In this document: positions 16,456-19,221 of the stretch, piece after piece
Layout of the letters: every line of letters begins with the position of its first letter
How positions within the stretch are numbered: position 1 is the stretch's first letter
Source: Elusimicrobia bacterium HGW-Elusimicrobia-2
GTDB taxonomy: Bacteria > CG03
DNA length: 25,548 bases
NCBI GenBank assembly: GCA_002841685.1
Contig: PHAM01000025.1
Location: 1 to 25,548 of the forward strand
Direction: 5' to 3'
Notes under the pieces: model-generated
What the model saw: only the letters and a program-made list of their open reading frames with translations
What the model was told of the DNA's origin: nothing
Database searches by the model: none
Program-made: the position numbers and the translations under genes

Positions 16456-18111
16456 TTAATCAAATTTTTCACCACAGTTAGGACAAGCGGCATCAGTTTC
16501 AGAAACAATTCCTCCACAGTTGGAACACTTAAATTTTTTTGTACCTTTTTTAAGAGATATTCTAGCTATTTTATCTCTTTCTCCCAACATTTGTGTCCTT
16601 TCCTTTTCTTGCTCTTTCTCGATTTTCACTCTTTCATCTAAAATCTCTTCCAATAACTTAATATCCTGATTAAATCGTAATTTTAAAGTTTCTATTTCTT
16701 TGTTTCTTATTTGTCTTTCACTTTCTAATTCCCTTTTGAGGTGGGAAATAGTGCCCTGTAGAATTTTGATCTCATCAGCTTTGCCCCTTACTCCTTCTCT
16801 CAAAATTGTCCTCTCTTCTTCAATCTCCTTTTCTTTGGAATACAAGGCCTCTCTTGCCTGAGTTAGCTGAACTTCCAGCTTTTCACTTTTGGCATTTCCT
16901 TCTTCTTTTGTTCTTTTTAGATTCTTACCTCTTTCCTCGGAAAGCGCTACCAGTTTTGCCATTTCCCTCTTTATATTTTCTATTCCGTTTTCTTTGCTCT
17001 TAAGTATCTCGGTTCTAACTCCCTTCTCTTCCTGTAACAGCTTTTTAATGAACCCTATCTCTTGTTCAAGTTCTGCCCTGACTTCTTCCATCTCTTCTTT
17101 TTTTAACAATCTCTCTTCTTCTATTTCACTATTCCGCCGCGTTAAGGCTTCTTTCAATATTTTTAGCCCTTGCTCTTTTCCCGATAACTGTTCGGTAAGA
17201 TGTCTGTTGCTCTCTCCTAACATATCCCGCTGCTTTTTTAATTCATATTCCTTGACCTGGAATCCTTCAATTACCTTTGTTCTCTGCTCCTGAGAAGAAT
17301 TTTTAATTATCTCAAGCTCCTTATTAAAAAGATTATATCTTTCGGCGGCTTTTTGTTTGAGTGATTGGATTTCATCTTCTTTTTTCCTGAGTATCTCAAC
17401 TCTGCTTTCCTTCTCTTCCTGCAGCGCTCTTTCTAAAGACATTATTTCCTGCTGGAACTGGTTTGTTCTTTCATTGGTTTCCTCTTTTTGCAGATGATTT
17501 GCTTCTTCTAACTCTTTATTTCGCCGGCTCAAGGATTCGTTCAATATTTTAATTTTTCCATCCATTTCAGTTACTTGTTCTTGCAGACGCCTGTCTCTCT
17601 CTGTAAGAATATTTTCCTGTTTTGCTAATTCATCTCTTTTGGTCTGAAACTCCCCCGTCAGTTTCTCCCTTTGCTGTTTCAATTCAAATTTTGCTATTTT
17701 AATTTCTTGGTACTTCTCGTGATAAACAGCGATTTGGTTTTCCAGAAATTTATTTTTCTCTCTTATCTTTTCTTTTTCTTCTTGTGTTATTATTTTATTT
17801 TCTTCCATATATTTCTCTATTTCTTTCTGTTTATTAGCATAATCTTCCTGTAGTCTCTTTTTCTCCTGGAGTAAACTTTCCTTTAACTTTTCATTTGTAT
17901 CAATAATTTCTTGCAGATTATTAATTGCCCTTTTGTTTTTTTGTATATCTACATCACGGATTAAATGTCTGGCTTTCTCCATAGTTTCTTTCAATTTGGC
18001 TTGTGTTTCCTGCAATTCTTCGAATTTCTTATTAAAGTTGTCACTTGTTTTATCCAGGTTCTCTTTATCCAAAATTTCAATCTCTTTTATTTCTTTATTG
18101 TTTTCAGCCAT
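16456..18111 (-). CDS. Long coiled-coil protein with C-terminal zinc ribbon, function unknown
   Basis: The chosen ATG at 18111 gives 551 residues. AAGGA lies 7 bases before it. Two earlier in-frame starts (18126 ATG, 18138 GTG) lack such a site. Nearly the whole chain is Glu/Lys/Gln-rich coiled coil with no Pro until the end and no membrane segment or signal peptide. Residues 155-283 and 284-412 are a gapless 129-residue tandem duplication. Matching landmarks are EQVTEMDGKIKILNESLSRR with EQLSGKEQGLKILKEALTRR, and ALQEEKESRVEIL with LLQEEKGVRTEIL. A third, shorter copy begins near residue 421. The last 23 residues form a zinc ribbon, CSNC-x10-CPNC (Cys529, 532, 543, 546). Codons are much more AT-rich than in the flanking genes, suggesting transfer. 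A structural or scaffold role is possible; I do not recognise a named family. Confidence 0.85.
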   Translation of the reverse strand: MAENNKEIKEIEILDKENLDKTSDNFNKKFEELQETQAKLKETMEKARHLIRDVDIQKNKRAINNLQEIIDTNEKLKESLLQEKKRLQEDYANKQKEIEKYMEENKIITQEEKEKIREKNKFLENQIAVYHEKYQEIKIAKFELKQQREKLTGEFQTKRDELAKQENILTERDRRLQEQVTEMDGKIKILNESLSRRNKELEEANHLQKEETNERTNQFQQEIMSLERALQEEKESRVEILRKKEDEIQSLKQKAAERYNLFNKELEIIKNSSQEQRTKVIEGFQVKEYELKKQRDMLGESNRHLTEQLSGKEQGLKILKEALTRRNSEIEEERLLKKEEMEEVRAELEQEIGFIKKLLQEEKGVRTEILKSKENGIENIKREMAKLVALSEERGKNLKRTKEEGNAKSEKLEVQLTQAREALYSKEKEIEEERTILREGVRGKADEIKILQGTISHLKRELESERQIRNKEIETLKLRFNQDIKLLEEILDERVKIEKEQEKERTQMLGERDKIARISLKKGTKKFKCSNCGGIVSETDAACPNCGEKFD

Positions 18112-18198
18112 CTTTCCATCCTTCATGGACTTGTACACTTTTTTGTTTCTATCCGCCTTAGTAAATTATTTTTCATTATCCCCCACGCTTACCCCAAT

Positions 18199-18266
18199 AA
18201 AAAAAGGGGCGCCAAATCAATCATCGGCAACCATCAAGTAAATTCGACAAATCAACTGACGCCCCT
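18199..18266 (-). terminator. Terminator-like stem with T7 in the leader of the coiled-coil gene
   Basis: On the minus strand AGGGGCGTCAG (18266-18256) pairs with TTGGCGCCCCT (18215-18205): 11 pairs, the first seven all Watson-Crick. A run of seven T (18205-18199) follows at once. The loop is long (about 40 bases) and contains one arm of another repeat. It lies about 90 bases before the start codon, so it could act as an attenuator. Confidence 0.55.
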
Positions 18267-18320
18267 AAGCGCCAGTCTTTATCCTCTTGATGGTTAACCT
18301 TTTCGGTTTAAGAAAAGACT
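18199..18320 (-). ncRNA. Candidate structured leader RNA with pseudoknot
   Basis: Minus-strand pairings, 5' to 3': (a) AGTCTTT (18320-18314) with AAAGACT (18280-18274). (b) Inside it a small hairpin, TTAAACC with GGTTAA around GAAAA. (c) AACCATCAAG (18295-18286) with CTTGATGGTT (18238-18229), ten perfect pairs. (d) AGGGGCG (18266-18260) with CGCCCCT (18211-18205), then T7. Pairings c and d cross, so together they form a pseudoknot. I recognise no known riboswitch class. It could instead be a DNA element or a free small RNA. Confidence 0.5.
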
Positions 18321-18366
18321 GTTTTATGAATTTCTTTAATTAAAATTTTCTGCTAATTGCCTCCTA

Positions 18367-18394
18367 ATAATACTCTTCATTTTTCTTTGGTCAA
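18367..18394 (-). promoter_or_regulatory. Probable promoter of the coiled-coil gene and its leader
   Basis: Minus strand: TTGACC (18389-18394, 5 of 6), 16 bases, TATTAT (18367-18372, 5 of 6). The predicted start near 18360 gives a leader of about 250 bases before the ATG at 18111, long for a simple untranslated region. An AGGAGG at about 18358-18363 has no start codon after it. Confidence 0.6.
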
Positions 18395-18417
18395 AACATA
18401 ATTCAAATCATTTGACC
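18389..18417. promoter_or_regulatory. Inverted repeat over the -35 box, possible operator
   Basis: Plus strand GGTCAAA (18389-18395) and TTTGACC (18411-18417) are perfect 7-bp arms, 22 bp centre to centre, about two helical turns. The left arm contains the -35 hexamer. Within the spacer, CAAAT-C-ATTTG is a second small palindrome next to the right arm. No regulator gene is evident nearby. Confidence 0.45.
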
Positions 18418-18509
18418 TGTTTATTTATAGCAAATTCTATTGTTTTTTTCGAGGCGGGTTCGAGTTTAGCTTGGGAGTTTAGCGCATTCTCTGGATAGAC
18501 GATTTGATA

Positions 18510-18950
18510 TTATTGATGGGTTGAGGATTGATGTTTGATGATTTCTAAAAATTCCTGAACTGTTACAATCGAAATATTTTTATAGTGACGCAAGTCCAGG
18601 AGATGTTTGTCGCCGGAAACGATATAATTCGCTTGTGCTTCAACGGCGCAGGCCAGGAATTTATTATCGCTGGGGTCGTCTTTAATGACATTGAGATGAA
18701 GTGAATCGGAGAGGACTGCGGCTTCATGTTCTATCAGGTTTATGAGGAGGTCTGTGTCGTTTTTTCTGAGATTATATTTTTTCGCTATGTGGGGGTATTC
18801 AAGAACCCTTTTTATTTCTTTGATTATTTTTTTAGATGTGACCAGAGTGTATAAACAATTTTCCCATGCTTTTAAGAGCTGAGCGGAAGCGCCCTTCCGG
18901 CTTATAACAGCGCTCACAAATTGATTGGTATCGATTACAACTTTAATCAA
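18510..18950 (-). CDS. PIN-domain toxin (putative ribonuclease of a type II toxin-antitoxin pair)
   Basis: The 146-residue protein is a PIN nuclease of the COG1569-like type. Acidic metal-binding positions are visible: Asp7 in VVIDTNQFVSAV, Glu45 in the helix KIIKEIKRVLEYP, Asp92/Asp95 in DDPSDNKFLACA, and Asp114 in YIVSGDKHLLDL. PIN toxins cut RNA, but the target cannot be read from sequence. The start is a TTG at 18950, one base past the antitoxin stop and without a clear ribosome site, so expression probably depends on coupled translation. That would keep toxin below antitoxin. No start further in could preserve the VVIDTN strand. The C-terminal HQSSTHQ tail lies in a TGATG/TTGAGG-rich stretch that may be a recent extension. 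Confidence 0.88.
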   Translation of the reverse strand: MIKVVIDTNQFVSAVISRKGASAQLLKAWENCLYTLVTSKKIIKEIKRVLEYPHIAKKYNLRKNDTDLLINLIEHEAAVLSDSLHLNVIKDDPSDNKFLACAVEAQANYIVSGDKHLLDLRHYKNISIVTVQEFLEIIKHQSSTHQ

Positions 18951-18951
18951 A

Positions 18952-19221
18952 TTATTTACTGACGGCTTTTATTGCCGCTGAGACATCTTTTTCTGTTTCT
19001 CCGGAAGAAATATCAGGAAGCCCGGATTTAATGCTGTCCAGGATTTTGAATCGTTCTTCACGCTCCTGAAAAAAGCGCCGGTATTCATCGGCATTCAGAA
19101 TCGCGATCATGGGTATTCCTGATTTTTCCACGATGAAACGAACCCCGTTTTTAAAAGACTGTTTCATGATCTCGCCGAGGTGAACGCGGGCTTCCAGCGC
19201 GGGTATTGTTTTAGTTGTCAT
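18952..19221 (-). CDS. Phd/YefM-type antitoxin
   Basis: The 89-residue protein has the Phd/YefM fold pattern at its N terminus: IPALEARVHLGEIMKQSFKNG, then VRFIVEKSGIPMIAILNADEYRRF. The N-terminal part normally dimerises and binds DNA. The variable C-terminal tail (after about residue 50, Glu/Lys/Ser-rich) normally wraps the toxin. GGAGG lies just before the ATG. It is first in the two-gene unit, directly upstream of the PIN toxin. Its own promoter carries a repeated half-site array at 19257-19282, a likely autoregulatory operator. Confidence 0.85.
   Translation of the reverse strand: MTTKTIPALEARVHLGEIMKQSFKNGVRFIVEKSGIPMIAILNADEYRRFFQEREERFKILDSIKSGLPDISSGETEKDVSAAIKAVSK

Follow-up and report, generated by a model that had tools for sequence, protein, structure and literature searches.

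A 25,548-nucleotide stretch of DNA from Elusimicrobia bacterium HGW-Elusimicrobia-2 (hereafter, the window) carries on its minus strand, between a promoter-like site and the gene for a coiled-coil protein, a set of inverted repeats that cross one another and close on a run of T. The question is whether these repeats form a functional RNA and, if so, whether this RNA controls the gene behind it. The original prediction proposed a pseudoknotted leader RNA with a built-in terminator, belonging to no known class and acting as an attenuator in cis. In the following, W stands for the window copy of the RNA, G000 for the window's own genome and G000b for the second copy within G000.

The window RNA is about 170 letters in length, with a conserved core of about 120-145 nt across the family, and all its elements are read on the minus strand. 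Promoter-like boxes, TTGACC-16-TATTAT with 10 of 12 matches, are located just upstream of the RNA (18367-18394), where a promoter had been predicted, but such a site alone is about as expected by chance. The 5' leader AGGAGGCAATTAGCAGAAAATTTTAATTAAAGAAATTCATAAAA (18322-18365) is near-identical within the genus and unconserved between phyla. Next comes the 5' arm of helix P3, CAGTCTTT plus TCT (18321-18311), which pairs with 18284-18273 and includes the predicted stem AGTCTTT (18320-18314)/AAAGACT (18280-18274). P3 encloses hairpin P0, AACC-GAAAA-GGTT (18308-18296; arms 18308-18305 and 18299-18296), and the 5' arm of helix P1, AACCATCAAG (18295-18286). The 3' arm of P1, CTTGATGGTT (18238-18229), completes the perfect 10-bp pairing of the original prediction. 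Because this arm is located in the loop of helix P4 (arms 18250-18245 and 18226-18221), P1 crosses P4 as well as P3; among the copies its length varies between 10 and 13 bp. Hairpin P2 (18277-18254; arms 18277-18269 and 18262-18254) is nested within P1 and overlaps both the 3' arm of P3, whose final bases are also used by the 5' arm of P2, and the 5' arm of the terminator stem. The P2 loop carries an extra hairpin in most copies and ends with AGGGG, the partner of CCCCU ahead of the U tract. P0, P2 and P4 were not among the pairings noted originally.

The stem that serves both as pseudoknot and as terminator stem lies within the predicted GC-rich pairing of AGGGGCGTCAG (18266-18256) with 18215-18205. 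It consists of seven Watson-Crick pairs between AGGGGCG (18266-18260) and CGCCCCT (18211-18205), can be extended by G-U pairs, and is closed by T7 (18205-18199), of which 18205 is also paired. The GGGG segment beyond the U tract (18195-18192) is present as predicted and could pair alternatively with CCCC (18209-18206). The gene behind the RNA (16456-18111, with a GTG at 18138 as an alternative start) encodes a coiled-coil protein with a C-terminal zinc ribbon.

Relatives of the window RNA were found by BLAST in two of the three other genomes of the genus examined. A first covariance model, made of these three genus sequences and of P0, P1 and P2 only, retrieved copies outside the phylum and the divergent copy G000b; a second model, from which the window copy had been left out, gave this copy a score of 128 bits and added further members. 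The collection amounts to 11 distinct copies in nine genomes, two each in G000 and G293 (G293a and G293b) and one each in G001, G003, G151, G288, G223, G296 and G231. Since phylum searches around G000, G151, G223 and G231 gave separate genome sets, the carriers represent four phyla. In a domain-wide sample at least 8 of 386 genomes carry the RNA, which is a minimum in view of the strict filters used with large samples. The RNA family is thus conserved, with compensating mutations, in at least four little-known bacterial phyla. When the window and seven homologue loci were scanned with all families of Rfam 15, no match exceeded the gathering cut-off, in agreement with the prediction of no known class; lenient thresholds gave only unrelated chance matches at the RNA, far under the cut-off. 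Word searches of the open literature, which cannot query by structure, found no description of the RNA. A pattern scan of the genome collection gave 19 matches, of which 18 were chance resemblances to the 5' leader and only one, L036 on the G001 contig, was genuine.

The window strand folds with a stability z of -3.3, and none of 200 shuffled sequences was equally stable. Comparison of the 11 distinct sequences, the check on which the prediction of crossing helices depended, revealed compensatory changes. For the five-helix structure 96.9% of cells were paired with 60 two-sided changes, as against 80.1% and 17.9 in the shuffled control, which reached the observed score in 0 of 500 trials; structures slid along the alignment dropped to 37-56% paired. 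Two-sided changes were detected in 4 of 6 pairs of P0, in 8 of 11 pairs of P1 and in two pairs of P2, the core cells of which were 100% paired in all 11 copies. For P3, P4 and the terminator stem together, 95.1% of cells were paired with 21 two-sided cells, versus 87.7% and 8.6 after shuffling (0 of 500), and P4 alone was 95.9% paired versus 83.6%. As neither P3 nor P4 had been included in any search model, the covariation of both is not a product of fitting. The terminator stem is near-invariant, with a single variable pair (C-G, U-G or U-A), so its support comes from conservation more than from covariation. The alignment thus supports six predicted helices, five by covariation and the sixth, the terminator stem, by conservation. 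AGGGG is kept in 10 of 11 copies, and in the same number the stem AGGGGYG/CGCCCCU (with one G-U or A variant) is followed by a U run; a U-rich tract is present after the stem in all 11, being accompanied in G000b by a local stem. The family therefore combines a conserved, aptamer-like structure backed by covariation with the GC-rich stem and U run of an intrinsic terminator. Taken together, the crossing helices and the homologues in four phyla strongly support the predicted pseudoknot with built-in terminator, and we regard the RNA family as real: uncatalogued, with several pseudoknots and with a terminator inside its fold.

The helices fall into two overlapping sets. In one, P0+P1+P2, the terminator strand is free; in the other, P3+P4+terminator stem, which together with P0 makes a completely nested fold, it is paired. 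Three bases of P2 also belong to the terminator arm and two to three also to P3, so that terminator nucleotides are used in both alternative folds, as in a thiS-like mechanism. When each fold was forced singly, the energy gap was within about 5 kcal/mol in 7 of the 10 copies with an intact 5' part, or in 8 of 11 counting the degenerate G288 copy; these are nested-fold estimates, the pseudoknotted composite being outside the scoring. The paired values (kcal/mol) were -35.4 versus -34.2 for W, -59.9 versus -58.8 for G223, -59.7 versus -61.4 for G231, -55.4 versus -57.7 for G293a and -54.1 versus -56.1 for G293b. G003 and G151 showed a gap of about 9 kcal/mol, and that of G000b was larger still. 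One fold with a terminator and another with its strand free, close in energy, give the RNA an attenuator-like appearance. Both helix sets may also coexist as a single compact pseudoknot.

Several copies depart from this plan. A local GGGG..CCCC hairpin before the U tract is possible in G001, G003, G223, G296 and G000b, and in these five copies a local terminator could form even in the P1/P2 fold. G000b (L033, G000:C81:16758-16916) has lost the distant AGGGG and carries a local AGGGG..CCCCU hairpin, on which it seems to rely. The G288 copy (L032, G288:C140) is without P0 and the 5' arm of P3 and has a promoter-like sequence, TTGACA-17-TATATT, in their place, so that its transcript would begin at the P1 5' arm. 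At least three Gs are kept beyond the U tract in 8 of 11 copies; this G run is relevant at the RNA level only if transcripts read through.

Promoter boxes are located just upstream of seven copies; those of G223, G231, G293a, G293b and G151 scored 9-11 of 12 and that of G296 was weaker, and no clear boxes were detected upstream of the G001, G003 and G000b copies. A gene on the same strand follows in all 11 cases, within about 100 nt in 10 of them (usually 10-100 nt) and at about 250-300 nt for G003. Under random placement on the same contigs the chance of a same-strand gene is 0.55, which gives a probability of about 0.0014 for the observed orientation, or about 0.009 with sister copies collapsed.

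The first downstream gene encodes a response regulator in G001, a histidine kinase in G003, PilZ fused to a KAS III-like domain in G223, membrane proteins in G231 and G000b, a DNA methylase in G293a, an exported TPR-PDZ protein (followed by FHA-PilZ) in G293b, lipoproteins in G288 and G296, and an exported protein with a secretion tail in G151. In G000b the order is membrane protein, PDZ/CsgG protein and then glycine-cleavage genes. The products of 7 of the 11 first genes, the histidine kinase included, are exported or membrane proteins, and this set of downstream genes suggests a surface and signalling regulon. No downstream gene family common to the 11 copies was found. The link with the coiled-coil gene, part of the original prediction, is incidental, none of the other copies preceding such a gene.

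Upstream of the window RNA (18400-18450, minus strand) lies the C-terminal remnant of a PUR (DUF3276) gene, ending in KKTIEFAINKQVK and a stop. The PUR gene is recognisable or fuller in G001 and G005 and is reduced to a remnant in W and G003. After the stop of the remnant comes a small hairpin, GGTCAAAT..TTTTGACC, which shows compensatory changes between genomes and overlaps the -35 box. Directly upstream on the same strand (18510-19221) are genes for a PIN-domain toxin and a Phd/YefM antitoxin. In the window and in G001 a short stretch, GTGTACAAGTCCATGAAG and its relatives (window 18160-18120; L023, L058), comes after the RNA; in G005, which is without the RNA, a stretch of this type follows the PUR gene.

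The reading that we favor, with a probability of roughly 0.55, is that the downstream transcription unit has this RNA as its 5' leader and that the RNA acts as a riboswitch-like transcription attenuator, with the terminator within the folded sensor. From the elements described above we infer transcription, termination and switching as follows. In the P0+P1+P2 fold the CCCC strand would be left free and RNA polymerase would read through; in the fold of P3, P4 and the AGGGGYG/CGCCCCU stem followed by the U tract, transcription would terminate. P1 could bridge the latter fold as a pseudoknot, and a ligand or another cellular signal would shift the balance between the folds. The attenuating, cis-acting role originally assigned to the RNA is therefore plausible in view of the 11 same-strand genes, the two close folds and the embedded terminator, but a stand-alone RNA is possible as well. 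The promoter boxes ahead of seven copies, the G run kept in eight, and the exported, membrane or signalling character of most first genes, which recalls the genes behind c-di-GMP-I riboswitches, also speak for the attenuator. Counting against it are the want of a common downstream gene family, the distant G003 gene, the altered G288 and G000b copies, the local terminator that five copies could form even in the P1/P2 fold, and the wider energy gaps of G003, G151 and G000b.

This stand-alone RNA, the main rival, would be a small RNA acting in trans, with a promoter and a terminator of its own on either side of a pseudoknotted body; the following gene would be coincidental. Between the -35 box and a point just beyond the U tract the G231, G293a and G293b copies resemble one another, and their flanks differ, as expected for such a unit, and the terminator stem is included in the consensus fold. 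The diversity of downstream genes points in the same direction: the closely similar G231 and G293a copies stand ahead of unrelated genes, and within the window genus the downstream genes differ, W and G003 keeping the RNA structure intact while the PUR gene upstream has decayed to a remnant. Against it stand the same-strand gene downstream in all 11 copies and its proximity in 10, the G run conserved after the U tract, and the two folds near in energy, of which one is without a terminator. It is the PUR gene decay, the differing downstream genes and the similarity of G231 and G293a ahead of unrelated genes that hold our estimate for the attenuator at the above value and make the stand-alone RNA a possible, if less likely, alternative.

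It is quite unlikely that the RNA is a ribozyme or belongs as a partner to a mobile or defence element, with no role in control of the next gene. Its patchy spread at one or two copies per genome, the DNA methylase after one copy and the PIN/Phd pair in the window could be taken in this sense, but the copies share no protein partner, and the ends of the unit common to them showed no terminal repeats. Neither did a scan of viral contigs with five patterns yield a genuine copy, nor BLAST any match in phage and plasmid records, and no self-cleaving class of Rfam matches the RNA. The sole viral-contig match, L068, was located inside a terminase-like gene and failed the covariance model. An ordinary terminator with chance inverted repeats and no specific function is refuted by the covariation, for, even if a hairpin with a T run is by itself not rare, the compensatory changes that affect five helices among homologues from four phyla leave it practically no weight.

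Among known regulators, the attenuator proposed here is closest in working to the HMP-PP riboswitch (thiS motif), the aptamer of which is embedded in the terminator; comparative data support mutually exclusive folds and a possible pseudoknot for it (PMC6478431). The thiS motif construct measures about 66 nt, and the class is tied to thiamin genes. In both, sensor and intrinsic terminator would use the same nucleotides in two mutually exclusive folds. The new RNA, for which Rfam has no match, differs: its core measures about 120-145 nt, its helices cross at least three times, the loop of its terminator spans about 50 nt and its gene set is another. By size, fold, genes and the lack of a model match it is not a member of the HMP-PP class. 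In the fluoride, preQ1 and c-di-GMP-II riboswitches, ligand control is exerted via a pseudoknot near the expression platform. In contrast, the pseudoknot stem of the new RNA is the terminator stem itself, several crossings exist and no Rfam family matches.

The c-di-GMP-I riboswitch (GEMM, RF01051) deserves separate comparison. It has a separate expression platform, and its aptamer model (87 positions) resembles the new RNA neither in sequence nor in structure. No c-di-GMP family model matched at the RNA in the scan of all Rfam 15 families, and by structure the RNA is neither a c-di-GMP-I nor a c-di-GMP-II riboswitch. The likeness is in the surroundings: both occur in the same genomes, ahead of exported proteins, response regulators, subtilase and secretion-tail proteins. 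Each carrier genome encodes several GGDEF proteins, and c-di-GMP-I riboswitches are present in nearly all these genomes, up to 17 in G296. The genes behind these riboswitches belong to the same classes as those behind the new RNA, and several of them have domains in common with the latter; control genes elsewhere in the loci rarely share these domains. The common domains are of widespread kinds (secretion tails, TPR, receiver domains) and c-di-GMP-I riboswitches occur also in genomes without the new RNA, so this overlap is a hint at the ligand and not evidence of binding. No true orthologues of the G223 PilZ gene were found behind c-di-GMP-I riboswitches. By analogy of gene context, the foremost candidate ligand is a cyclic dinucleotide. 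The fuller proposal, a further natural class of cyclic-dinucleotide riboswitch in candidate phyla, a multiply pseudoknotted RNA in which a ligand-controlled pseudoknot would be the terminator and which would operate alongside c-di-GMP-I riboswitches, is doubtful. As a separate observation, the genomes G223, G296, G297 and G298 (1.3-2.0 Mb) contain 8 to 17 c-di-GMP-I riboswitches each, tandem pairs included, several of which precede CheY-like response regulators.

The RNA represents an uncatalogued structured class with clear covariation, in the fold of which a multi-pseudoknot core and an intrinsic terminator are merged. If it is a true switch, it would be a new class of sensor, the regulon of which probably concerns surface and signalling functions, in lineages of which the regulation is almost unstudied. 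It would also provide a case of a long-range pseudoknot acting as a terminator stem, which terminator finders based on hairpins would miss.
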